Origin: an uncultured Maribacter sp.
GTDB taxonomy: Bacteria > Bacteroidota > Bacteroidia > Flavobacteriales > Flavobacteriaceae
DNA length: 64,000 nt
Assembly (NCBI RefSeq): GCF_947495965.1
Contig: NZ_CANMBB010000007.1
Location: 62,001 to 126,000 of the forward strand
Direction of reading: 5' to 3'
This document shows positions 2,265-60,542 of this stretch, one piece after another (positions within the stretch are counted from its first letter, which is position 1; the number at the start of each line of letters is the position of its first letter). Below the pieces are notes generated by a model. The model was given only the letters and a program-made list of their open reading frames with translations. It had not been told where the DNA came from and did no database searches. Made by a program: the position numbers and the translations under genes.

Positions 2265-5200
2265 TTAATTTTTTAAAAACGATTCTGATACTATAATTTG
2301 TTCTAAAACAGATTGAAATTTATAATCTTCCGCAATTACATTTTGAACAATCCCGTCTAGTTCTTTTTCATCTGAAAAACCTATATCTCTGCCTAAAGCA
2401 TAGGCATATAAATGCTCTACCAAAGATTTTGTGAATTCTAATTTCTTTTCATTTAGAATATATTCTTTAATACCCTTTACACCATTTACTTCTGTACCGT
2501 CTGGTAATATAGATTTAGAATCTATTGGCCTATTTTTTGCTAATTTTTGATACCTACCTACAGCATCATAATTTTCAAATACTACTCCGTAAGGGTCTAT
2601 TTTTAAATGACAATCTATACAAGAAGCTTTATTTCTATGTAAATCTAATTGCTCTTTAAGTGTTAACTTATCAAACCCAGGAGTTTCTGGATCCAACTCA
2701 GGAACATTTGGCGGTGGCGGTGGCGGTGGATCACCAAGAATTTTTTCCTTTAACCAAACAGCTCTTTTAATTGGGTGTGCATGCACACCATCTGAATGTC
2801 CTGTTAAAAATGCTCCTTGCGATAATAAGCCTCCTCTATTTTCTTTAGAAGGTAATGCAACTACCCTAAATTCGTTTCCTTTTATGCCTTTAATGCCATA
2901 AAATTCTGCCAAATTCTGATTTAACATAGCAAAATCTGAATCTACAAAGTTTAATATACTTAAATTATCTTCTAAAATATGATGTACAAAGCTATAGGTT
3001 TCTTGCGCCATATCTTCTTTAACAAACCTTGTAAAATCTGGATATAAAGACATATTAGCGCTCATTCCCTTTAACCTATCTATTCGTAACCAATCATAGG
3101 TAAACGCCTCTATCATTTTCCAAATTTTTGGACTTTTAACCATCCTAGGCAGCTCTTTAGATAATTCTTCTTTTAACTTTCCTTGATCAGCAAGTGTTAC
3201 TAATTTTTCATCTGGTGGAGAGTTCCACAAAAAGTAAGACATTTTAGATGCTAGGTAATATTCATCTGTTTTAGTATCTGGAGTAGCTTTTTCTGTTTCT
3301 AATAAATATAAAAAATTTGGTGAGCACAAAATAGCAACTAATACTTCCTTTACACCATCTTCATATCTATCAAAATTATCTTTAGTTTCTTTCCAAAAAC
3401 TTAAGTACCTTTCTAACTCGCCTTCTAAAAGAGGTCTTCTAAATGCATTTTCTATAAACTTACGAAGCACTTCTGCAGTGTATACTTCTTTATTATTCTT
3501 GTTCGGGGAATCAAAAAAGATATTCGTATGGCTTTTTGGTGGCCATACAGGATGATACGGAGCCTCTAACTCTATTGTTTTAATTAATAAAGGAGGTCCT
3601 GTATCCCCTTTACTCTTCACTAGGTTATCATTCCAAAGGCCCACAATCATAGTACTTGCTAATTCCGATTTTTCACTAGGATTATACACTGGAAGTGGTA
3701 AATTCTCTAATCTTCCTTGAAATTCATAGGTAGAAAAGTTCCCTATTTCCGATTTTACTTCTTTACTAACATCATAGGTATCATAATCTAAACCATCATC
3801 TGTTCTAGAGCCAATAAAAGCACGAATTGAAGGAATTGAATTTTTAAATTTCTCTTGATTCACCTCTACTTCTTTTCTTAATTTCTCAGGCAGCGGGTCA
3901 TTCTCTGAAAGAGGCGTAACTCTTATTTCACTAAAGCCTACAAAAAACTTTCCTCCAATAGTGATGTTATACGTTCCTTTTTTAAAAGAGGCCAACGTTA
4001 CTGGCGTTACTATTTCTTCTTTATCTTTTAACTCTTTCCCTAACTTTAATCGCTCTTGTAATCTTTTAAAGTTTCCTATCTGCATTAAAAAAGAAGGCAT
4101 ATTTTCTTCGGAAGAGTACGGATGTACAAAATCTACTTGATAAAAACCATCTTCAGGAATATCTAATTGTAGTTCTACATTTGCATATGCATCTGCCGCT
4201 TCAGCCAGCAACCATTTATCATCTTTAACAATAGTTCTATTAGCTTTTACATTCTCTATTGCCTTTACTATAACTGTTTTAGAAGAAACCTCAGCAGGTA
4301 TATTTTCTCTAAGACTAATAAGTCCCTCTTTATTCTTAATTGCATTTCCTTTAGACGCCTCTACTCTAAAAATAAATGGTCCCTCTGTTGGAAAATCATT
4401 TTTAATTAACATTTTTAAATTAGGAGAAGGTCCTTGCCAAGATCTTGGAGGTACATCTTTATGCGGTAAAGCAGAGTAAAGGAGCATTCCCCCTTCTGTT
4501 ACCTCATAACGGTCGCTCATAGAGCCACGCATTCCAATTCCAATATTTTTTTTAATGTTCTCTGCATTTTCTTTTACTTGCCCATCAGGGGTTAATACTT
4601 CTACTAAAAAATTATCTTTTTTAATTGGTGCCGATTGGAACCCTCCAAATTCTGCTGCTATACTATTAACTCCTATATTTTCTCCAAAAGTAACTTTGTA
4701 CTTCTTTGGTTCTGGCTTTGCTCCAAACACAATAGCCTTATCTAAGGCCTCTCTGGCTATTTTTTGATAATAGTCTATATGTAAAGAAGATATTTGTAAT
4801 ACATTTCCATTATTTGTAAAACCCATTTTAGATTTGCCATCATCTGGTAATACGCTCCCGAAGTTAACGGGTAATTGTAAAAGCTGATTTAACGAATTGG
4901 TATATTGAGATTTAGTTAACCTACGTGTAACTTTCTTGTTTACTCCTCTTTTTGCTTCCGAGGCCTCTTCTAAAGAATTTGTAAGCCAATCTACTAACAT
5001 TCTTCGCTCCCTAGTAGTAAGTTGTTGCTTTTTCTTAGGAGGCATTTCTCCTGCATTAATTTCATTTAAGGCAGAATGCCATTTTTGGGCATCACTACCA
5101 TTAACCATATCCCAATTAAGAACATCTAAACGCATACTTCCCTTTTGTTTTTTTTCGCCATGACAGCTAAAACAATATTTATTTAGAATAGGTCTTATAT

Positions 5201-23544: not shown

Positions 23545-25227
23545 TTATTTTGTTCCTGTTGCCTTATTACCTTTCCAACCTTTATTAAATTGAATTAATA
23601 ACTTTTTTACTAATTCTGGATTTTCTTTGGCAACATTAACGGTTTCTTTAGGGTCTGTTTTATGGTCATATAATTCTACAAACAATGGTTCTTTTTCTGG
23701 TTGTGTATAATCCTTCCAAACAATTAGTCTATACTGTTCTGTACGCATAGCATACCCCATAAGTCTATTTTCAAACAAATCCCTATCCCATTTCTCTTTT
23801 TGTTGGTCTTTAATTTTAGCCTCCACCTCTTCAATTAAAGGTCCAAAATAAGTTTCTCGCATACCCTGAGACAATGGATTTGCAGCCCACTCTCTAAGTG
23901 CTGGTGTAGGGAATTGGGTAAATACTGCAGATTTCCAATTCATTTTTGGATTCTCTAATAATGGAGCAAAACTTTGTCCTTCTAAATGATTTGGCAACTG
24001 TATTCCCGCTAAATCACATAATGTAGGGTACATATCTACCAGCTCTACTAAAGCATTTGTTTTTTTTCCTCTATTTTCTTTAGCCATATCTGGAGTCCAA
24101 ATCATTAATGGCACTCGCGTTCCTATTTCATAATTAGTAGCCTTTCCCCAAATACCCATATCTCCTAAATGCCATCCGTGGTCACTCCAAACAATTATAA
24201 TAGTGTTATCTCTTACACCTGCATCCTCTAAAGCATCTATCATGACACCTATTTGCGCATCAATATAACTTACACAGGCCAAATACGCATGTTTAAGGGT
24301 TCTTGCCATTTCATCATCAATAGGGCCTTTTTTAGGAATTCCATATCTAGCACGTAATTCAAAAGAAGGGTGTAAACCCATTGCTGCACCATCTTTTGGC
24401 CCTTCGGTTTGTGTTGCTAGTGGTATTTGAGATGCATCATACATATCCCAATATTTTTTAGGAGCCATCCAGTTTAAATGTGGTTTTTTCATCCCCATAC
24501 CCAAAAAGAAAGGTTTATCTGGATTCTTTTCTAACATATCTTTAAGGGTTGCTATGGCTAATTCTGCATTATACCCATCTTCATAAAATGAATCTGGAAC
24601 ATCTGCTTTTTCATAAGCAGGACCCTTCCCTAATCCGTTTCTTGGTGCATTTTCTCCGTATTTTGCAATTACCTCTGCTGTACTCTTTTTTGAAAATTCT
24701 TGATTTTCCTTAAGTGCATATCCTCCTGGAGCCTTACTTTTTTCTATGGTCATCTTATCATAAGCAGGTTTTCTGCTCCATGAAAGTTTAGCATCTCCAA
24801 ATTTAGTGTTATGGTATATTTTTCCTGTACTAACCGTTTCGTAACCATTGGCCCAAAAATGTTGTGGTAGGGTTAAAATATCTGGATTTTTATCTCTGAA
24901 ATACGTAAAATTTTCAATTACGTTTATAGTTTCTGGCCTTGCTCCGGTCATTAAACTTGCTCGTGAAGGACTACAAATAGGTTCTTGACAATATGCATTA
25001 TTAAATAACAAACCATCTGCCGCTAACTTATCTAAATTAGGTGTTACGGCTATATCAGAACCATATGCACCAATTTCAGGTCTTAAATCATCAACAGCTA
25101 AAAAAAGAATATTAGACCTACTATTCTTTACCTCTATCGCTTCTTTAGTTTCTTTACACCCAATCACTGTAACTACCATACAAAAAAGTAGTATCGCTCT
25201 AAATTTTAATCTCAATATATCATGCAT
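23545..25227 (-). CDS. S1-family sulfatase, iduronate-2-sulfatase-like (S1_7 type), lipoprotein
   Basis: A 560-residue sulfatase with lipobox VTVIGCKET (C24). The start NILFLAVDDLRPEIGAYGS, maturation motif C85-S-P-S-R and TGARPETINVIENFTYFR track human iduronate-2-sulfatase closely, as expected for subfamily S1_7. S1_7 members also occur in marine galactan loci, so the name does not imply glycosaminoglycan as substrate. IVWSDHGWHLGDMGIWGKATNYE gives the C-terminal half of the active site. It is the first gene of a two-sulfatase operon. Its promoter region carries the weakest of the five 21-bp direct repeats (25321-25348). Confidence 0.92.
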   Translation of the reverse strand: MHDILRLKFRAILLFCMVVTVIGCKETKEAIEVKNSRSNILFLAVDDLRPEIGAYGSDIAVTPNLDKLAADGLLFNNAYCQEPICSPSRASLMTGARPETINVIENFTYFRDKNPDILTLPQHFWANGYETVSTGKIYHNTKFGDAKLSWSRKPAYDKMTIEKSKAPGGYALKENQEFSKKSTAEVIAKYGENAPRNGLGKGPAYEKADVPDSFYEDGYNAELAIATLKDMLEKNPDKPFFLGMGMKKPHLNWMAPKKYWDMYDASQIPLATQTEGPKDGAAMGLHPSFELRARYGIPKKGPIDDEMARTLKHAYLACVSYIDAQIGVMIDALEDAGVRDNTIIIVWSDHGWHLGDMGIWGKATNYEIGTRVPLMIWTPDMAKENRGKKTNALVELVDMYPTLCDLAGIQLPNHLEGQSFAPLLENPKMNWKSAVFTQFPTPALREWAANPLSQGMRETYFGPLIEEVEAKIKDQQKEKWDRDLFENRLMGYAMRTEQYRLIVWKDYTQPEKEPLFVELYDHKTDPKETVNVAKENPELVKKLLIQFNKGWKGNKATGTK

Positions 25228-25283: not shown

Positions 25284-25348
25284 CAAATTTCCAAACTTTA
25301 GCTTATCTAGGCTTCATTAAAATTACCTTATTATTACAGTATTTTAAC
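25284..25348 (-). promoter_or_regulatory. candidate 21-bp direct-repeat operator with -7 box (sulfatase pair)
   Basis: On the + strand AATTACC (25321-25327) and TTTTAAC (25342-25348) lie exactly 21 bp apart, matching the TTTWACC-N14-TTTWACC repeat seen at four other promoters, with mismatches. A -7-like box (GAAATTTG on the minus strand, 25284-25291) lies 29 bp nearer the gene, the same gap as elsewhere. The sulfatase start is at 25227. This is the least certain of the five sites. Confidence 0.45.
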
Positions 25349-25407
25349 TATAACTTTTATAAGCCAATTTAAACGCATTACCTATAAATAACTTAATATA
25401 CAAAACC

Positions 25408-33888: not shown

Positions 33889-35283
33889 TTATTCTTTTTC
33901 AATTGGACCACGTCTATAAGTATCCATACGTTCTATATCGTAATTTTCAAAATTTCTTTTTAACATCCATAGAGGGCGTTCCAAAGTAGACTCCCACACA
34001 AACATCTCTTTAAACATTTTTCTCACTTTATCAGGATGTTCTGTTACCAAATCATTTTCTTCCGTAAGGTCTTCTGCCAAATTATATAATTCTGCTGGTC
34101 TATCTGCAAAACGAATTAACTTCCAATCCCCATTCCTATAGGCTAAACGGACTTCTTTTTTCCAAAACATAGTTTGATGTGGTCTTCCCAAATTATCCCC
34201 TTTAACATAAGGCAGAAGATTTACACCATCCACTTCTTTTAAATCTTTTACATCACCTCCGCCAGCAGCATAAAAGGTTGGCAACAAATCCATAGTACTA
34301 ACAGGAAAATCATATTTCTGCTTCTTTTTTATTTGATTTGGCCAACTCATAAGATATGGCACACGTATACCCCCTTCTAAATGGTTAGATTTTGTTCCGC
34401 TTAACGGAAGATTTACAGATGCATTCTTATCTGTAGGACCTCCATTATCATTAGAAAAAACTACAATTGTATTTTTATCTAAACCTAATTCTTTTAGTTT
34501 ATTTAACACCCTTCCGCAAGCGCGATCTAACGCCAATGTCATTGCCGCCAATTCTTTACGTTTCCCTTTTAACTTTGGAAATTTATCTAAATCTTCTTGC
34601 GTAGCTTCCATTGGAGTATGCACAGCATTAAAAGCTAAATATATAAAGAAAGGTTTTTCTTTATTTTTTTCAATAAAACCAGCAGCTTCATCAGCTAAGA
34701 CATCGGTAACATATCCTTTAGGCTCTTCATAAACACCAAAGCCTCTTTCCATTCTAGTATCTTTATGAGCAGAGGAAGACTCTTCATACCCAAAATAACT
34801 ACGTGCACCTCCTCTGAATCCATAAAATTCATCAAAACCTCTATTTAAAGGATGATAACGATCCGCATCTCCTAAATGCCATTTACCGTACATAGCAGAT
34901 GTGTACCCTAATTTTTTAAGATAATCCGCTATTGTAACCTGATCTAAAGGCAAGCCCATATCATCTCCTAGAAATTTTGAATTCTCACTCATATAACCAG
35001 GAACGTTTATCTCTTCATATCCAAAACGCTGTTGATACTTCCCTGTCATTAAACCAGCTCTAGAAGGGCCACAAGTGGCATCAGTAACATAACCTTGCGT
35101 AAAGGTAATTCCCGACTTAGCTAACTTATCCAAATTAGGAGTTATCATTTCCTTACTGCCTTGAAATCCAAAATCTGCATACCCTGCATCATCTGAAAAT
35201 AAAAAAACAATATTCGGCTGTTTTTGTGCAAAACTTTGAAATTGAAAGAGTATTACTACCAAAAAAGAACATATATATTTCAT
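33889..35283 (-). CDS. S1-family sulfatase (periplasmic), first gene of GH127 operon
   Basis: A 464-residue S1 sulfatase with a type I signal peptide (FQFQSFAQ cleavage region, no lipobox). It shows [20 protein letters not shown], the intact maturation motif C71-[35 protein letters not shown] and [10 protein letters not shown]. Its [13 protein letters not shown] segment parallels the sulfatase at 22038, suggesting S1_19-like ancestry; that subfamily contains carrageenan 4-sulfate sulfatases, so removal of galactose-4-sulfate is a reasonable but untested guess. It heads the operon sulfatase, GH127, porter, GH127, and perhaps the molybdenum hydroxylase. Its promoter carries a perfect 21-bp direct repeat. 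Confidence 0.92.
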
Positions 35284-35330: not shown

Positions 35331-35395
35331 CAAAAGAAACACTTATTTAAAAAACTTTTTTTACAAATTTTACCAACTATCAACACTATTTTACC
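35331..35395 (-). promoter_or_regulatory. 21-bp direct-repeat operator with -7 box (GH127 operon)
   Basis: Two identical TTTTACC copies on the + strand, 35368-35374 and 35389-35395, spaced exactly 21 bp (two helical turns). In the direction of transcription this reads GGTAAAA-N14-GGTAAAA. Twenty-nine bases downstream lies a -7-like box, TTCTTTTG (35331-35338), one mismatch from TAnnTTTG, giving a leader of about 40 nt before the sulfatase start at 35283. The geometry is the same at susC, rhaT and gntP. Confidence 0.7.
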
Positions 35396-35427
35396 TCAAA
35401 AAACACCTTAACATATACATAAACACC

Positions 35428-39806: not shown

Positions 39807-39836
39807 AAAAAAACCGAGAGGCTCCCCCCTCGGTTT
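39807..39836 (-). terminator. terminator after susD
   Basis: Stem AAACCGAG (39811-39818) with CTCGGTTT (39829-39836), a C-rich loop, and a run of seven T on the minus strand (39813 down to 39807). It follows the susD stop by 43 bp and precedes the MFS start at 39784, so it may act as an attenuator giving high SusCD and lower downstream expression. Confidence 0.75.
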
Positions 39837-39878: not shown

Positions 39879-41603
39879 CTAATATCCATCATTTTGGATA
39901 AGAGATGCTGTCTTATCAATTTCAGCTTGCGGAATTGGTAAGTAGTACATTCTTTGGAACCAAGGTCTTGTAACAACAGTATACTCCTCATTGGTTACTG
40001 TACCATCTACTTGCGTTGTCCAAGTAAGTCCTTTAATATCCATACCAAGGTGATCTTCATTCATCCAGCGCCTTTCATCAAAGAAATTATGTCCTTCAAA
40101 AGCAAGCTCAATACGTCTTTCTCTTTTTATAGCTTCTAACAAATCCGTTCCAGCTGCAGTAATAGCCGGTTGAAGTCCTCTTGCAACAGATTTATTAACA
40201 AAAGTTAAAGCCTCTGCTTCATTTCCTAAATGATATTGTGCTTCCGCATAGTTTAAATAAATCTCAGCTAACCTGTATAGTATATACGGTCTTCCAGGTG
40301 TAGGGTCTTGAATATTCCCTAAAGATTCGTTTTGAAATTTACGGATATTATACCCTGTCTTAGATGAATGCCTTACATTACCTAAACCTTCAGGAGAATC
40401 ATCTCCATGAGGATACTCATCTGGATTTAAGGATAATGCATAATTTATAGGATTCCCTCTAAACTCTGCTCCTTGAAAATTAAGATTTGCATAATAACGC
40501 ATTTCTCTATTAGCATTAGGGTCTGCTGGATCAAATAAACCATCATCGGTTGTTGTACCATCATTCATATTATACTGCAATGCATAGTTATGCGTAGGAG
40601 AAGATAACGCCCATCCATCATCTCCATTTGGAGATTGAGTTCTATCCCATAATGAATTACCATCTGTTCCAAAAGCAAATATGGTACTACCAAATGGTCT
40701 TGCAAAAATAATATCTTCGTTTACGGATAAAAATAAATCCTGATATCCTTTTGCATCAGCAACAGAAATTAAATCACGAGATCCAACCATGTCAATAACT
40801 GCTTTAGCTGCATCTGATGCATCTTGCCATTTTGTAGCCTTAGAATATGTATAAAAATCTGTATTAGTTGTTTGCGGCGCTAAAGCAGGGTCATGCAAAT
40901 CGCTTGCCGCATACAACAATACTCTAGATTTAACTGCCAAAGCTGCCATTTTAGTTGCTCTTCCAAATTCGTCCTCTGGTCTAGTATCTGGTAATACAGC
41001 CGCAGCAGCATCTAACTCACTTACAATAAAATTAACACATTCTTCGTACGTATTTCTAGGAATATTAAAATCATCATCTAAGCTAGCTGCTGTTTCTAAT
41101 ATAGGAACTCCTCCATAATATCTTATAAGTTTGCTATATAAGTTAGCTCTTAAAAATCTCATTTCTGCTAAAAGAAGATTGACCTTTTCTGGGTCTTGCT
41201 CCATTGCAGGCGACTCCGGAATTTGATCAAAAAATAAGTTAGCCTGTCTTATGTAAGTGTAATATTTAGACCATTGATTTCTAAAAAAACCAGGGTTCCC
41301 AGCTGTCCAACCAGCTCTAACACGTAGTAAATCTAAATTATTAAAATTAAACTTAGACTCAAATGAAGCATTTTCAATATTAAACCTTCTAGACCACCAA
41401 ATGGAATTATCTAATCCCCAATTTTCTGTACTATTGTATGTGGTTAACAATAACAGTTCTACTTGTTCTGGAGTACTAAGAACTAAATCACTCGCAAAAG
41501 AACCAGTTACATCAATATCCAAATCGTCATCACAACTACTCACAGAAAAGAATAGTAGTACTGCAAATAGATATGTTAATTTAAAATTTTTCATATTTCT
41601 CAT
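39879..41603 (-). CDS. SusD/RagB-family outer-membrane glycan-binding lipoprotein
   Basis: A 574-residue SusD homologue. The lipoprotein leader ends in FSVSSCDDDLDID, the acidic stretch after the cysteine being a lipoprotein export signal for surface display. Internal SusD features include NLLLAEMRFLRANLYSKLIRYYGGVP, YILYRLAEIYLNYAEAQYHLG and the C-terminal RRIELAFEGHNFFDERRW with LPIPQAEID. It forms the lid of the SusC channel and binds the oligosaccharide. It begins 9 bp after the susC stop, and the pair ends at the terminator near 39.81 kb. This is the only SusC/D pair in the window. M4 is a possible alternative start. Confidence 0.95.
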   Translation of the reverse strand: MRNMKNFKLTYLFAVLLFFSVSSCDDDLDIDVTGSFASDLVLSTPEQVELLLLTTYNSTENWGLDNSIWWSRRFNIENASFESKFNFNNLDLLRVRAGWTAGNPGFFRNQWSKYYTYIRQANLFFDQIPESPAMEQDPEKVNLLLAEMRFLRANLYSKLIRYYGGVPILETAASLDDDFNIPRNTYEECVNFIVSELDAAAAVLPDTRPEDEFGRATKMAALAVKSRVLLYAASDLHDPALAPQTTNTDFYTYSKATKWQDASDAAKAVIDMVGSRDLISVADAKGYQDLFLSVNEDIIFARPFGSTIFAFGTDGNSLWDRTQSPNGDDGWALSSPTHNYALQYNMNDGTTTDDGLFDPADPNANREMRYYANLNFQGAEFRGNPINYALSLNPDEYPHGDDSPEGLGNVRHSSKTGYNIRKFQNESLGNIQDPTPGRPYILYRLAEIYLNYAEAQYHLGNEAEALTFVNKSVARGLQPAITAAGTDLLEAIKRERRIELAFEGHNFFDERRWMNEDHLGMDIKGLTWTTQVDGTVTNEEYTVVTRPWFQRMYYLPIPQAEIDKTASLIQNDGY

Positions 41604-44928: not shown

Positions 44929-44962
44929 ACAGGGAAGTATGTCCAGTACTTTCCTGTTTTTT
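44929..44962 (+). ncRNA. candidate antisense sRNA 3' end (terminator) in susC leader
   Basis: Hairpin ACAGGGAAGTA (44929-44939), 7-nt loop, TACTTTCCTGT (44947-44957), with one unpaired position, followed on the + strand by six T (44957-44962). On the minus strand it is preceded by A and followed by no T-run, so it would not stop susC transcription. It would stop an RNA made antisense to the susC start. Cis-antisense sRNAs at susC leaders (DonS type) are known from Bacteroides. I found no convincing + strand promoter, so this is only a candidate; a structured leader in the susC mRNA is the alternative. Confidence 0.35.
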
Positions 44963-45055: not shown

Positions 45056-45121
45056 CAAATAAAGCGTAATTTCTAATGTATCTCTTAGCAAAATTTAACC
45101 TACATTAACATTATTTTAACC
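45056..45121 (-). promoter_or_regulatory. 21-bp direct-repeat operator with -7 box (susCD)
   Basis: Two identical TTTAACC copies on the + strand, 45094-45100 and 45115-45121, 21 bp apart. A -7-like box TTTATTTG (45056-45063, minus strand; one mismatch from TAnnTTTG) lies 30 bp nearer to susC. Transcription would begin near 45050, leaving a leader of about 180 nt. The sequence ahead of the distal copy, ACATTAT, is also kept at the other sites. Confidence 0.7.
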
Positions 45122-45364: not shown

Positions 45365-45682
45365 TTATGAAATTTCCATAAATTCTACAGGAGAACCTTT
45401 ATGTACTATAAAAGCAACCTTAACCCCTTCTCCAGGAGAAAAAGTTTCTACTAAAATTTGCCTTCCAACTAATGCCTCTTCAATATCGTTAACCAAATAA
45501 GCTACATGCGGTAGTGTCTTCATCATTTCCGGCATAGGACTATCCTCATCAAATTTGACCCATTCTACTTTATATTCGTCTTTATCAAACTCTGTATAAT
45601 GTATTTTACCTGGCTCATAAAAACCATCCCAATCCTTCTCTTCTGTAGTTGGTATTCCAATATGACTAAATACGTAATCCAT
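45365..45682 (-). CDS. small VOC/glyoxalase-like protein
   Basis: A 105-residue single-domain protein. The start FSHIGIPTTEEKDWDGFYEP, the middle LPHVAYLVNDIEEAL and the end FIVHKGSPVEFMEIS show the beta-alpha-beta pattern of the vicinal-oxygen-chelate superfamily. The expected metal ligands are plausibly H8, a histidine near residue 60 (PHVAY) and the C-terminal glutamate E103. It has no signal peptide, so it acts in the cytoplasm. VOC proteins include glyoxalases, epimerases and isomerases. Sitting 87 bp downstream of the GH2 gene and closed by its own terminator, it may act on an anhydro- or keto-sugar intermediate of the operon, but nothing in the sequence fixes this. Confidence 0.75.
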   Translation of the reverse strand: MDYVFSHIGIPTTEEKDWDGFYEPGKIHYTEFDKDEYKVEWVKFDEDSPMPEMMKTLPHVAYLVNDIEEALVGRQILVETFSPGEGVKVAFIVHKGSPVEFMEIS

Positions 45683-45769
45683 TTTGTGAAATTAATTTAA
45701 TGCAAGTTAGATAGTTAAACCATATTTAAATAATCTCTATTTATCATAAACAAGCATTATATTACCCTT

Positions 45770-51135: not shown

Positions 51136-51921
51136 TTAGTTTGTTTCTAAAGCCGTAGTAATATCTTTAAAAGCATTCATTACAATACCCACATCTACAG
51201 AATACGAAAGATATTGCACTCCTATGTCTGACCATTTTTTAGCATCTTCTGGAGTTTCTACAAAGGTACCAATTGCTTTACCATTTTGCTTTGCTAAAAG
51301 CACTGCTTCTTCCATACGGTTTACAACTTTTTCATGATGTACCTGTCCAGGCACTCCACAAGATTGAGATAAATCATAAGGTCCTAAAAAAATCACATCA
51401 ATATCCGTCTTTACTATTTCAGAAAGATTTTCAATTCCCTCTAAGCCCTCTATATGAACAATAGAAAGTATGGCGTCATTAGAACTTCCAAAATACTGAG
51501 TTTTTTCTACATTAGTATACTCTGCAGCGCGAACATACCTACACATTCCTCGTTCTCCCTTTGGATGAAATAATGTAGCATTTACAACTTTTTCTGCATC
51601 TTCTTTCTTCCCTACTTGTGGTACTTGTATACATTGTACACCAATATCTAAAGTTCTTAATATTAAGGTTTCTCTATTTTCAGTAACTCGTACAACTGGT
51701 GTTATTCCTTTTGCTTCTGCCGCCCTAACCATTTGCTGCGCCCCTTCTATACTAAAAGGGCCATGTTCCATGTCTATTATTATAAAATCGAAACCTGCTA
51801 ATGCAGCTAATTCTACTATTGCTGGGTCTTGCATTTTACAAAACGGACCAACCACGGTTTTACCCTGCGCTAAAGCTTCTTTTAAATTATTCTTTCTCAT
51901 TCTAATACCTTCATCAATCAT
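51136..51921 (-). CDS. HpcH/HpaI class II aldolase (2-keto-3-deoxy acid aldolase)
   Basis: A 261-residue metal-dependent pyruvate aldolase. FIIIDMEHGPFSIE contains the catalytic H53, and TPVVRV holds the pyruvate-binding arginine. VPQVGKKEDAEKVV, CRYVRAAEY, HIEGLEG and FLGPYDLSQS complete the family pattern seen in 2-keto-3-deoxy-L-rhamnonate aldolase (YfaU/RhmA) and HpaI. It cleaves an unphosphorylated 2-keto-3-deoxy acid to pyruvate and an aldehyde. The start abuts the stop of the aldehyde dehydrogenase (51922), with no spacer, suggesting coupled translation; M8 is an alternative start. With the ALDH and enolase-superfamily genes upstream it completes a three-step route from an aldose to pyruvate. 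Confidence 0.9.
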   Translation of the reverse strand: MIDEGIRMRKNNLKEALAQGKTVVGPFCKMQDPAIVELAALAGFDFIIIDMEHGPFSIEGAQQMVRAAEAKGITPVVRVTENRETLILRTLDIGVQCIQVPQVGKKEDAEKVVNATLFHPKGERGMCRYVRAAEYTNVEKTQYFGSSNDAILSIVHIEGLEGIENLSEIVKTDIDVIFLGPYDLSQSCGVPGQVHHEKVVNRMEEAVLLAKQNGKAIGTFVETPEDAKKWSDIGVQYLSYSVDVGIVMNAFKDITTALETN

Positions 51922-55563: not shown

Positions 55564-55629
55564 CAAATTAACTAAAACGCAGAAAAAAATAACAGTTCTA
55601 ATTTATCCTGACCTTACATTATCTTAACC
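55564..55629 (-). promoter_or_regulatory. 21-bp direct-repeat operator with -7 box (rhaT/catabolic operon)
   Basis: TTTATCC (55602-55608) and CTTAACC (55623-55629) on the + strand, 21 bp apart, each one change from TTTWACC, with the conserved ACATTAT just before the distal copy. The -7-like box TTAATTTG (55564-55571, minus strand; one mismatch from TAnnTTTG) lies 30 bp downstream, leaving a very short leader before the rhaT start at 55546. Confidence 0.62.
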
Positions 55630-57041: not shown

Positions 57042-57106
57042 CAAAACTATTAATTTAAGCAATAGTTACTTTTATATAAGCTACCTCTCTATAGCACTAT
57101 TTTACC
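57042..57106 (-). promoter_or_regulatory. 21-bp direct-repeat operator with -7 box (gntP)
   Basis: AGCTACC (57079-57085) and TTTTACC (57100-57106) on the + strand, 21 bp apart, with CACTA before the distal copy exactly as at the 35.4 kb site (12 shared bases, CACTATTTTACC). A perfect -7 box TAGTTTTG (57042-57049, minus strand) lies 29 bp downstream; the gntP start is 82 bp further. Confidence 0.65.
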
Positions 57107-57128
57107 CAAGAAATATATTAAAATACAA

Positions 57129-58013
57129 CTAAGCAACTACTTGGTCTTTCTTATATTTCTCCATATACTCTGATGGAGTTACATTCATTAAGCCTTTAAA
57201 CTGCCTATTAAAATTGGTAAGTGTATTAAAACCAGATTGGTAACATATTGCAGATATTTGCAACTCCCCTTCTATTAATAATTTGCAAGCATGACGCAAA
57301 CGTATTTCATTAAGGTATTGTGTAAAAGACTTATGAGTTCTTTTCTTAAAATAACGACAAAAAGCATTTGGTGTCATATAAGCTATAGAAGCTACTTTCT
57401 CTAATTCAATTTTCTTTTCAAAGTTTTCTGTTAAATACAAAATAACCCTAGCCATTCTCTCTTTTTCATTCTTATTAAATGTATTTGTAATAACTTCTGA
57501 ACATAGTGGCTCATAGTTTTCGCTTATAGACAAAATATCTAAAACATTTAATAACCCAATTACACTAGACAAACCATTACTACCAACTAAACCAACCATA
57601 TAGCTATGCACCAAGTAAGTAACTGCCTTAGAAAACTTAAGTCCTCTGTCTGCTTTTTGGAATAACTGTTGTAATCTTTTTGACTCTGTTAAATTTAAAA
57701 AAGCATCTCCTAAAAAGCTTTTTTCAAACTTAACTACAATAAGATCTACAGCCCCTGCTACATTTTCATCTTCATAATATTCTTTATGATTTTTAAATAA
57801 ATGTGGCACATTACTACCTATTAGGTATAATTCACCTGGACCAAAATTACCTATTGAATTACCTACATAACGTGTACCAGTACTTTTCATAAAATAGATT
57901 AACTCTAGTTCCTTATGAAAATGCCAATCTTGTTCAATACAGGGTAATGTATCTTGTCTTGCTAAAAAAGAATTTTCTGGTTTTCTTTCTGTCTGCTTAT
58001 ATGTTAATTTCAT
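57129..58013 (-). CDS. AraC-family transcriptional regulator with cupin sensor
   Basis: A 294-residue regulator when read from the ATG at 58013 (MKLTYKQ). An in-frame ATG at 58058 would add 15 residues that do not look conserved. The N-terminal half is an AraC_binding cupin (DWHFHKELELIYF, GPGELYLIGSNVPHLF). The C-terminal half has two helix-turn-helix motifs (LEKVASIAYMTPNAFCRYFKKRTHKSFTQYLNEIR and ISAICYQSGFNTLTNFNRQFKGLMNVTPSEY). It lies just upstream of gntP and its operator. AraC proteins bind direct repeats about 21 bp apart, so this is the best candidate for the factor reading the five direct repeats. An AraC regulator is likewise required for carrageenan use in Zobellia, as I recall. 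Confidence 0.88.
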   Translation of the reverse strand: MKLTYKQTERKPENSFLARQDTLPCIEQDWHFHKELELIYFMKSTGTRYVGNSIGNFGPGELYLIGSNVPHLFKNHKEYYEDENVAGAVDLIVVKFEKSFLGDAFLNLTESKRLQQLFQKADRGLKFSKAVTYLVHSYMVGLVGSNGLSSVIGLLNVLDILSISENYEPLCSEVITNTFNKNEKERMARVILYLTENFEKKIELEKVASIAYMTPNAFCRYFKKRTHKSFTQYLNEIRLRHACKLLIEGELQISAICYQSGFNTLTNFNRQFKGLMNVTPSEYMEKYKKDQVVA

Positions 58014-58125
58014 AGTTAATATTGTATTAGTGTATTTTACACGCTTACAAAAACGCATAAAGCATCTTTAAATTTATAAAAATTACCACAAAAACAATAA
58101 AAAATACACAATCATGATAAAATAG

Positions 58126-58145
58126 TGCTAGTTAAAAAACTAGCA
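58126..58145. terminator. hairpin between AraC gene and aldose epimerase, possible terminator
   Basis: Perfect 8-bp inverted repeat TGCTAGTT-AAAA-AACTAGCA, 42 bp downstream of the epimerase stop and 112 bp upstream of the AraC start. The T-run after it on the minus strand is poor (CTATTTTAT), so it may be a weak terminator or a palindromic operator for the AraC gene. Confidence 0.4.
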
Positions 58146-59510: not shown

Positions 59511-60542
59511 ATGGGAATAAAACAAATTGCAAAACTCGCAAATGTATCTATTGGAACAGTAGACCGTGTTATTCATAAAAGACCTGGTGTTTCTAAAGAA
59601 ACAGAAAAAAAGATTCTTAAAATTATTAAAGAAACTGGGTATACAAAAAACACTACTGCTAGCAGGCTTAAGCTTGCCTCTATAAAAAAAATAAAATTTG
59701 CAGTTTTGTTGCCCGAGACTAAAAAAGAATGGAACTACTGGAAATTACCAATACAAGGTATTAACAATGCCGTTAGTGAATTAAAGGAGATGGGAGTTGC
59801 GGTAGACTTTTTACATTTTAAGGACTCTAAAACCTATAGAAAAGAAATAGAATCTATTTTTTTAAAAGAATACAATGCTATTATTACCGTTCCTTTTTTT
59901 AAAACAGAAAGTAATATTCTATTGCAAAAAGCTGCTAAAAAACAAACCTCTGTTGTTTTTTTAGATACTGAAATAGATTTAGAAGATAATGCTCATTTTA
60001 TTAGACAAAACTCCCATCAAGCTGGTATGGTTGCTGGCAGATTGCTTTACGGTCTTGTTGGCACAGATGGGGAATATCTAATTATAAATAAACAAAATGA
60101 TAAAGGAACTTTAGTTAACAACTTACAAAGAGAAGGTGGCTTTAAAGAGTTTATAAAAACTGTTGCCTATAAAAAAGAAATACTCTCTAAATCTTACTTT
60201 TTAAAAAATGACTATAAATTAAGCCCTGAACTAATTACATGGCTAAAAACAGAATCTCCAAAAGGGATTTTTGTAACAAATTCTAAATCTCATATTATAG
60301 CAAAAGCCTTAAAGAAAGAAAAGGTGACCAATACGCAAATAATTGGATTTGATTTAAATGAAGAAAATATTAACTGCTTAAAAAATGAAGAAATAAGCTT
60401 CTTAATTAATCAGCAACCTGTATTGCAAGGATATATGGCCATTAAAAACTTATTTAACCATATTGCCAAGCAGGAAACTTTAAAAACAAACTACAATATT
60501 CCTATAGATATTATCCTAAAAGAAAACCTTTTAACTTCTTAA
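59511..60542 (+). CDS. LacI-family transcriptional regulator
   Basis: A 343-residue regulator and the only + strand protein gene of the window. The N-terminal HTH (IKQIAKLANVSIGTVDRVIHKRPGVS, with the hinge helix TASRLKLAS) is followed by a periplasmic-binding-protein-like sensor (KFAVLLPETKKEWNYW, DNAHFIRQNSHQAGMVAGRLLYG, IIGFDLNEENINCL). The VDRVIHKR variant of the HTH is common in Bacteroidota LacI proteins that sense a sugar. It faces the aldose epimerase gene across a 159-bp divergent promoter region that contains TAGGT-N7-ACCTA (59425-59441), a possible binding site. Its other targets are unknown. Confidence 0.9.
   Translation: MGIKQIAKLANVSIGTVDRVIHKRPGVSKETEKKILKIIKETGYTKNTTASRLKLASIKKIKFAVLLPETKKEWNYWKLPIQGINNAVSELKEMGVAVDFLHFKDSKTYRKEIESIFLKEYNAIITVPFFKTESNILLQKAAKKQTSVVFLDTEIDLEDNAHFIRQNSHQAGMVAGRLLYGLVGTDGEYLIINKQNDKGTLVNNLQREGGFKEFIKTVAYKKEILSKSYFLKNDYKLSPELITWLKTESPKGIFVTNSKSHIIAKALKKEKVTNTQIIGFDLNEENINCLKNEEISFLINQQPVLQGYMAIKNLFNHIAKQETLKTNYNIPIDIILKENLLTS

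Follow-up and report, generated by a model that had tools for sequence, protein, structure and literature searches.

The question raised by this locus is whether a repeated element in front of several of its operons is a genuine control site and, if so, which regulator reads it. The window (the whole stretch of DNA that was analysed, 64,000 nucleotides from an uncultured Maribacter sp.) encodes sulfatases, GH127 enzymes, a GH2 beta-galactosidase, a SusCD pair, RhaT-like and GntP-like transporters, an aldehyde dehydrogenase, two mandelate-racemase-type enzymes and an AraC regulator. These genes match those of Zobellia galactanivorans, named according to Table 1 of PMC5698469 and placed by position: cgsA (70% identity), ZGAL_181/cgsB2 (72%), a GH127 gene (69%), cgsC (72%), dagB (72%) and cgtA/cgtB (63/59%), together with a cluster that has the same order in both organisms and comprises dauA (75%), a dauB-like gene (58%), rhaT (ZGAL_3157, 57%), gntP (ZGAL_3158, 71%) and the gene of the AraC protein, which is 80% identical to CgrA (ZGAL_3159). 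On account of these matches, the window is identified as a Maribacter-like carrageenan PUL and the AraC gene (57129-58013) as the ortholog of Z. galactanivorans CgrA. The substrate, described in the first-pass annotation as galactan, can now be narrowed to carrageenan. None of the window's proteins exceeded 45% identity in the comparison with the dauC/dauD stretch; where Zobellia has dauC/dauD after dauA, the window has a gene for an HpcH/HpaI-type aldolase (51136-51921, minus strand), which suggests a non-phosphorylating end of the anhydrogalactose pathway here. Between susD and an MFS transporter gene, within an apparent single operon, lies a strong terminator-like hairpin (39811-39836, minus strand) that may lower expression of the genes beyond it, and the susC leader contains a stem-loop-like sequence (44929-44957) that is well conserved in Maribacter vaceletii.

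The orthologs of CgrA align from the methionine at 58013, the start codon assumed previously. The C-terminal double helix-turn-helix of CgrA scores 75.9 bits with HTH_18 (cut-off 33.6), and its profile matches the solved domains of AraC and MarA. The N-terminal part has no Pfam match; a weak model of it (AlphaFold mean pLDDT 67.5, with the other four models at 40-45) resembles RhaR (5u93) and AraC (2arc). At 294-309 aa, CgrA is a one-component protein and not the membrane hybrid two-component regulator that characterizes an HTCS regulon. Deletion of cgrA in Z. galactanivorans resulted in a lag and reduced growth on carrageenans (PMC5698469).

The element had been delineated as a 21-bp direct repeat, TTTWACC-N14-TTTWACC, written on the plus strand, with the genes concerned on the minus strand. 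Copies of the corresponding 28-mer are present: exact at 45094 and 35368, with two mismatches at 55602, with three at 57079 (where "near-perfect" was a generous description of the gntP copy) and with three at 25321. Nevertheless, the literal repeat is hardly beyond chance. Allowing up to three mismatches, it occurs 98 times in the window versus 77.4 +/- 9.3 times in shuffled sequences (2 of 100 shuffles reach 98), and allowing one mismatch, 50 times in the genome versus 81 times for the reversed pattern. The repeat is therefore the wrong unit, and the signal is carried by a longer element beneath it. When the five noted sites are read on the minus strand, which is the coding strand, and aligned on their TA steps, they have TAA(A/G)ATAnTGY in common, with a G two bases ahead of it; in all five, a G-n-TA recurs after a step of exactly 21 bp. 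The selective element that underlies the literal repeat has the consensus GGnTAAAATARTGYY-N6-GGnTAAAAT. According to the site profile, the second half-site keeps GGnTAA and has mostly lost the ATARTGY part, as might be expected if the downstream subunit of the regulator were to grip the DNA by one helix-turn-helix. The ATARTGY part of the first half-site corresponds to the ACAnTA or CACTA that had been seen before the distal copy of the repeat.

A matrix of 32 columns was built from 24 gntP and rhaT sites of 13 loci belonging to other genera, with no Maribacter among them. The training regions (n=25) excluded M. vaceletii and the loci L069 and L072, the latter two on account of their differing gene order, and one region, from Cytophaga sp. 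FL35, has no site by the expression used. That regular expression, a corrected version, finds 12 of 13 gntP-side and 12 of 12 rhaT-side sites in the relatives; the first version, which found only 2 of 13 gntP-side sites along with 12 of 12 rhaT-side sites, was discarded, and a loose 23-mer with two mismatches (2811 matches versus 2701 for its control) was useless. In these training loci a site precedes rhaT in all 12 non-Maribacter loci examined and follows cgrA in 12 of 13, lying before gntP in 11 and before a dauB-like gene in one (Aquimarina).

In the window, the six highest matrix scores are at 45118, 35393, 45764, 55626, 57104 and 25346, in descending order, all intergenic and on the coding strand; the next-best score is 9.7. 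All five sites of the first-pass annotation are thus among the top six, one site between them had been missed (45738-45767), and the statement that the GH110-like operon and the HTCS genes lack the site holds, as no further window position exceeds 9.7. The sites and associated features are listed in the table.

Table. Predicted operators, -7 boxes and associated features of the window
Feature	Coordinates	Strand	Evidence or remark
Predicted CgrA-type operator upstream of susC	45092..45121	-	Score 27.3, best in window
-7 box of susC promoter, TTTATTTG	45056..45063	-	TTTG at +59 from first TA
Predicted operator, sulfatase (33889-35283) heading GH127 operon	35367..35396	-	Score 23.8
-7 box of GH127-operon sulfatase, TTCTTTTG	35331..35338	-	Site alignment
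Predicted operator upstream of RhaT/DMT symporter gene, ZGAL_3157 ortholog	55600..55629	-	Score 16.0
-7 box of rhaT, TTAATTTG	55564..55571	-	Site alignment
Predicted operator upstream of GntP-like transporter gene, ZGAL_3158 ortholog	57078..57107	-	Score 15.5
-7 box of gntP, TAGTTTTG	57042..57049	-	Site alignment
Predicted operator upstream of sulfatase 23545-25227	25320..25349	-	Score 12.7, weakest of six
-7 box of sulfatase 23545-25227, GAAATTTG; TTTG kept, TA lost	25284..25291	-	Site alignment
Sixth site, 82 bp upstream of unlisted 105-aa ORF	45738..45767	-	Score 18.3
Box of TAnnTTGY form at same distance from sixth site, TAACTTGC	45702..45709	-	SM5 form (PMC9723704)
105-aa ORF between GH2 gene and susC	45365..45682	-	Conserved in M. 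vaceletii
cgrA, AraC-family regulator; likely start M16 of 309-aa ORF	57129..58013	-	HTH_18
Single inverted first half-site in cgrA promoter, ATGATAAAATAGTGCTA	58114..58130	+	Half-matrix score 20.2

The 105-aa ORF that follows the sixth site has no Pfam match, and a terminator-like hairpin (45322-45291) lies after it. Of 16 relatives, 12 also have an inverted half-site with a score of 9 or more in the cgrA promoter, at distances of 112-115 within Cellulophaga and 150-152 within Zobellia, and the one in Aquimarina belongs to a complete site that serves a divergent susC; negative autoregulation or looping would be a guess at its function.

Over 2.59 million positions comprising the window and the loci, 101 matrix scores of at least 14 were found, versus one for the reversed matrix and zero to one for each of ten column-permuted matrices. 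After merging, these represent 100 distinct sites, none of which overlaps an ORF of at least 150 aa on either strand. The controls scan the same sequence; because many of the loci were chosen for strict matches, the number of hits is not an estimate of density. Sixteen loci found in one scan encode proteins 60-98% identical to CgrA (two others, L077 and L078, at 24% and 41% identity, were set aside), and every one of the 16 has a site scoring at least 14, although 13 of them supplied the training sites and only L061, L069 and L072 are independent. The repeated element is a genuine control site that has been conserved in several seaweed-associated genera of marine bacteria.

The position of the element relative to the promoter is equally constant. 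In all five noted window sites, a TTTG stands exactly 59 nt after the first TA, so that the gap to the -7 box, formerly given as 29 or 30 bp, becomes one single spacing once the register is corrected. The same distance was found at 82 of 96 sites (59 of 72 without the training sites) and at 36 of 45 in a non-redundant set, in which sites at least 70% alike over 63 nt were merged, compared with 20 of 3015 background positions; a T precedes the TTTG by four bases at 94 of 97 sites. The -7 region took no part in selection of these sites. Among 16 exceptions, several have TTTA, one is displaced by one base, and three have TAnnTTGY, namely the sixth site of the window and the sites at susC in L069 and L072. 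In the start-site study of Flavobacterium psychrophilum, TAnnTTTG is the ordinary sigma-A -7 box and TAnnTTGY (SM5) is a variant -7 motif at the same position, -12 to -5 (PMC9723704). Setting the predicted -7 boxes at -12 to -5 would place the repeat at about -70 to -40, and a feature of class II AraC-type activation, a direct repeat at a fixed distance beside the core promoter, is present.

In an alignment with M. vaceletii, the region upstream of susC is 77% identical, with not a single change in the 49 bp from ATTTGGTTAAAATAATG to GCTAAGAGATACA. Further sites in M. vaceletii lie at the ortholog (86% identity) of the GH127-operon sulfatase (score 28.6), at rhaT (22.1), at gntP (by strict match only) and at the ortholog (80%) of the 25.3-kb sulfatase (15.4), and a site is absent upstream of the ORF homologous to the 105-aa ORF (best score -6.8). 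The idea that the repeats arose by chance in AT-rich intergenic DNA, which could appeal to the literal repeat being no commoner in the genome than its reversed control and to two other exact copies elsewhere in the genome, is considered refuted by the 101 matrix hits versus one or none in the controls, the spacing to the -7 box and the unchanged block within an otherwise diverged alignment.

The fixed distance to the -7 box would also be expected if the conserved block were an extended promoter for an alternative sigma factor. However, according to the site profile, most of the -7 boxes under the sites are TAnnTTTG or close to it, the ordinary sigma-A form (PMC9723704), and the block is a 21-bp direct repeat, placed at about -70 to -40, that tracks AraC genes. 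A dedicated sigma factor is accordingly very improbable.

For searches of whole genomes, a strict pattern was derived from the training sites and relaxed at two positions so as to include the rhaT and 25.3-kb sites of the window. In the window's own genome it has seven matches (six in the window and one at C1:495489) and its control has none; because of this relaxation, the new information is confined to the sixth site and C1:495489. The latter lies upstream of another SusCD pair, and M. vaceletii has a corresponding site; the regulon, proposed as PUL-wide, would thus extend to at least one distal susCD pair. A longer pattern, which takes in the -7 box and tolerates one mismatch, has seven matches in this genome, two of which, C5:280462 and window position 40566 (plus strand), with one mismatch each, look like chance. 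About 9 kb outside the window is a homolog of GH82 iota-carrageenase (C7:51741-52799), near which no site was found (the best score is 8.2 at C7:57431). The expectation that further matches would fall at carrageenase genes thus fails in this genome and is borne out in Z. galactanivorans at one of the four carrageenase genes located there: the GH82 gene at 2298591 has a site, whereas the genes at 4980695 and 2520394 and the GH16 gene at 290674 have none. A group of susC genes with alike protein starts was noted under the operator in both Maribacter and six Zobellia genomes (L109:5992, L110:5977, L114:5127, L117:7322, L121:4996, L166:6409, L169:6618, L170:6441), with 336-606 nt between the first TA and the start codon.

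Published expression data allow the predicted sites to be compared with gene induction. A genome with a single Zobellia contig (G077) that contains the CgrA cluster, a kappa-carrageenase and a DauB-type enzyme, with matches to PDB entries 5ocr and 5olc, was taken as that of Z. galactanivorans; locus tags were given to its genes according to their position and a comparison of the proteins, and the units headed by sites were drawn from ORF strand and order. The strict pattern has seven matches in this genome (none for the control), all seven with TTTG at 59, and the units that they head are assigned as ZGAL_181, ZGAL_1973, ZGAL_3147-3145, ZGAL_3150-3148, ZGAL_3157-3151, ZGAL_3158 and ZGAL_3581-3580. 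An S1-type sulfatase gene is in the place of ZGAL_181, which is also the best match, among the Z. galactanivorans stretches compared, of the window sulfatase at 23545-25227; the susC gene taken as ZGAL_3581 (63% identity) has a site like its window counterpart; and an iota-carrageenase-like gene (match to PDB 1h80) is in the place of ZGAL_1973. At that place (L131:7521-9503, minus strand), a 329-aa ORF is followed by a 294-aa ORF, and the first was the one compared with solved structures.

In Table 1 of PMC5698469, the first gene of all seven units is induced on both carrageenans, by 3.0 to 9.6 log2 units. That table is the authors' selection of genes; among 29 genes in it, induction by anhydrogalactose (D-AnG) was found for 13 of the 18 in site-headed units and 0 of the 11 outside (Fisher P = 1.3e-4). 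The correspondence has exceptions: ZGAL_1973 bears a site and is not induced by D-AnG (log2 0.1), and the response of ZGAL_3151-3154, which are downstream of a site, is not significant (PMC5698469). The kappa-carrageenase gene cgkA, the iota-carrageenase gene cgiA1 and PUL 3629-3638 are strongly induced by carrageenan in the same table (PMC5698469) and have no strict site in their vicinity. No match above 8 occurs around cgkA or in most of the 3629-3638 place, and the last stretch of that place has no site of at least 14; upstream of cgiA1 there is no match above 8, and the one such match nearby (11.6 at 4975691) lies 5 kb away from the gene and not in front of it. Because these genes respond to carrageenan without a strict site, other regulation exists.

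Across genomes, strict matches accompany cgrA. Eighteen genomes with a CgrA ortholog contain 98 strict matches versus 18 for the reversed control, whereas 14 genomes without CgrA contain 7 versus 14. Six of the latter belong to the same genus and have 7-30 AraC matches each but no strict match at all. At least eight of the 98 matches look like chance: those of L113, L127 and L128 (scores 4.2, 4.4 and -1.2, that of L128 inside an ORF) and those of L149, L150, L152, L153 and L164, where there is no site of at least 14. A Cellulophaga site at L125:6772 (minus strand) scores 22.2 and has no TTTG at 59 and no downstream ORF of at least 150 aa in the stretch examined. In nine Zobellia genomes, several of them shared with the set of 18, there are 62 strict matches versus 9 for the control.

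The reader of the site could be another regulator of the window, namely one of the two HTCS proteins, which also have AraC-type domains, or the product of the LacI-type gene at 59511. The motifs of Bacteroides HTCS proteins are long direct repeats, for example 16+5 and 12+9 bp (PMC3878776), and the M. vaceletii PUL has HTCS genes as well. On the other hand, all 16 CgrA loci (12.7-21 kb around cgrA) carry cgrA together with sites, and none of the 16 has a match to the window's HTCS genes, a match to the LacI-type gene was found only in M. vaceletii, and the HTCS-linked operons of the window have no site. Only the AraC gene, out of the window's four regulator genes, is present in all 16 loci, and a reader among the window's HTCS and LacI-type proteins is considered unlikely.

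A draw of 219 genomes of the family, searched with the longer pattern, showed a wider distribution. Four genomes with CgrA (E 1e-90 or better) have 22 matches and none for the control, while 215 without CgrA have 73 versus 20; because this count exceeds the control, the element is not exclusive to CgrA. Sixty regions from the 73 matches, holding 63 matches, were examined. The first 20 were picked by eye for resemblance, and 15 of these contain a CgrA-like gene; the match in one genome (G032) was known beforehand to be beside an AraC gene. Overall, 29 of 52 non-coding matches are within 500 bp of a CgrA-like AraC gene, versus 0 of 11 coding matches, and 27 of the 29 are divergent from it. Since the longer pattern included the -7 box, these genomes are not an independent test of its spacing. 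By eye, 22 of the 27 divergent sites face a gene whose protein start resembles that of a DHDPS-family protein encoded at L187. The L187 operon, the one that was checked, encodes a 4-hydroxyproline epimerase above the curated cut-off, along with DHDPS-like, semialdehyde-dehydrogenase-like and D-amino-acid-dehydrogenase-like proteins below theirs. Thus CgrA-like paralogs at hydroxyproline operons appear to use the same kind of operator. It is mainly because this operator plan accompanies AraC genes in two separate settings that CgrA is named as the binder.

The same finding raises the possibility that several CgrA-like AraC paralogs read the site and that signals from more than one sugar converge on the regulon. 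In other genomes, operators built to this plan adjoin CgrA-like paralogs, the presumed recognition helices (AFCRYFK and NFNR-F-K) are nearly the same in CgrA and the paralogs, the window's own genome has 25 matches to CgrA including itself (E 0.001 or better), and the lack of a D-AnG response by ZGAL_1973 (PMC5698469), despite its site, would be explained. Against this, two positions of the element tend to differ: of the 27 divergent paralog sites, 25 have T at position 3 and 19 have A at position 9, compared with mostly A and G, respectively, in CgrA sites. Furthermore, the AraC matches of the six same-genus genomes that lack CgrA occur without any strict match. Shared reading by paralogs therefore has a modest chance of being correct, well below that of CgrA as the principal reader.

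The conserved element, its fixed geometry, the genes that it heads, its co-occurrence with cgrA and its agreement with published induction are best accounted for if it is the activating operator of CgrA, governing an anhydrogalactose-signalled carrageenan regulon and bound by a dimer at about -70 to -40, a reading that is very likely to be right. Two CgrA subunits would occupy the direct repeat on one face of the DNA, a step of 21 bp apart. The upstream subunit would read GGnTA and ATARTGY in two major grooves, and the downstream subunit mainly GGnTAA. Since the repeat at about -70 to -40 touches the -33 region, bound CgrA would recruit RNA polymerase, i.e. class II activation. During digestion of carrageenan, 3,6-anhydro-D-galactose or something made from it would activate CgrA, which would then raise expression of the genes of the SusCD importer, desulfation, anhydrogalactosidase, sugar transporters and the anhydrogalactose pathway together, unlinked operons included. 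The earlier proposal that one AraC-type factor, the protein encoded at 57129-58013, switches on import, trimming and sugar catabolism is therefore supported, as an inference, by the co-occurrence of sites with cgrA, by the induction data of Z. galactanivorans and by the paralog sites beside AraC genes. Counting against a simple form of this picture, deletion of cgrA slows growth and does not abolish it (PMC5698469).

The carrageenan system is a leading example of a PUL with scattered parts. These are dispersed around the genome and have been tied together by co-expression and one deletion phenotype (PMC5698469). The operator predicts the scattered member genes from DNA alone, allows the regulon to be read in relatives of which nothing but sequence is known, and makes the direct targets, the inducer and the division into two layers testable; it might also serve as a promoter part for seaweed-sugar sensing. 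AraC-type operators with direct repeats and direct-repeat HTCS motifs were already known (PMC3878776). The CgrA operator, its link to anhydrogalactose-responsive genes and the plan shared with hydroxyproline operons were not found in the literature searched, which consisted of main texts, few of them from subscription journals. With a little better than even confidence, the findings may be generalized as a previously undescribed operator code for a soluble AraC subfamily across Flavobacteriaceae, in which a rigid module (the 21-bp repeat and the -7 box at a fixed distance) would replace the -33 element and positions 3 and 9 would help to set the regulator. The carrageenan version of the module would mark an anhydrogalactose-responsive core, gained by unlinked operons, apart from a site-less polymer-responsive layer (kappa-carrageenase, cgiA1 and PUL 3629-3638).

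In Escherichia coli, AraC at araBAD (I1-I2) binds two half-sites in direct orientation, about two helical turns from each other and immediately ahead of the promoter. CgrA is likewise an AraC-type protein, its predicted half-sites have a similar arrangement, and the model of its N-terminal part weakly resembles the AraC/RhaR sensor domains, albeit with the low confidence noted above; the predicted operator has another sequence and accompanies another sigma/-7 signal. The HTCS proteins of Bacteroides thetaiotaomicron also combine AraC-type domains with direct repeats of a 20-21 bp step, approximately, at PUL promoters (PMC3878776), but they are membrane-bound hybrid sensors, whereas the candidate regulator here has a single component and is some 300 residues long.

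The CgrA regulon of Z. galactanivorans has an orthologous regulator, the same kind of PUL and orthologous susCD genes, and its induction data agree with the sites (PMC5698469). The main-text parts covered of that study (PMC5698469) describe no operator; it is defined here. It splits the genes of the published table into a group with the site, most of which respond to anhydrogalactose, and a group without it. The operator plan is shared with the CgrA-like regulators of the hydroxyproline type (L171-L230, Flavobacteriaceae), whose sites are usually divergent from the AraC gene. These regulators differ in that their sites are mostly TAATATARTAY instead of TAAAATARTGY, their proteins are 28-38% identical to CgrA, and the operon that was checked is for catabolism of an amino acid, not a sugar. 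Through their kinship with CgrA, site choice by the AraC proteins of Bacteroidota can be put to a natural test.
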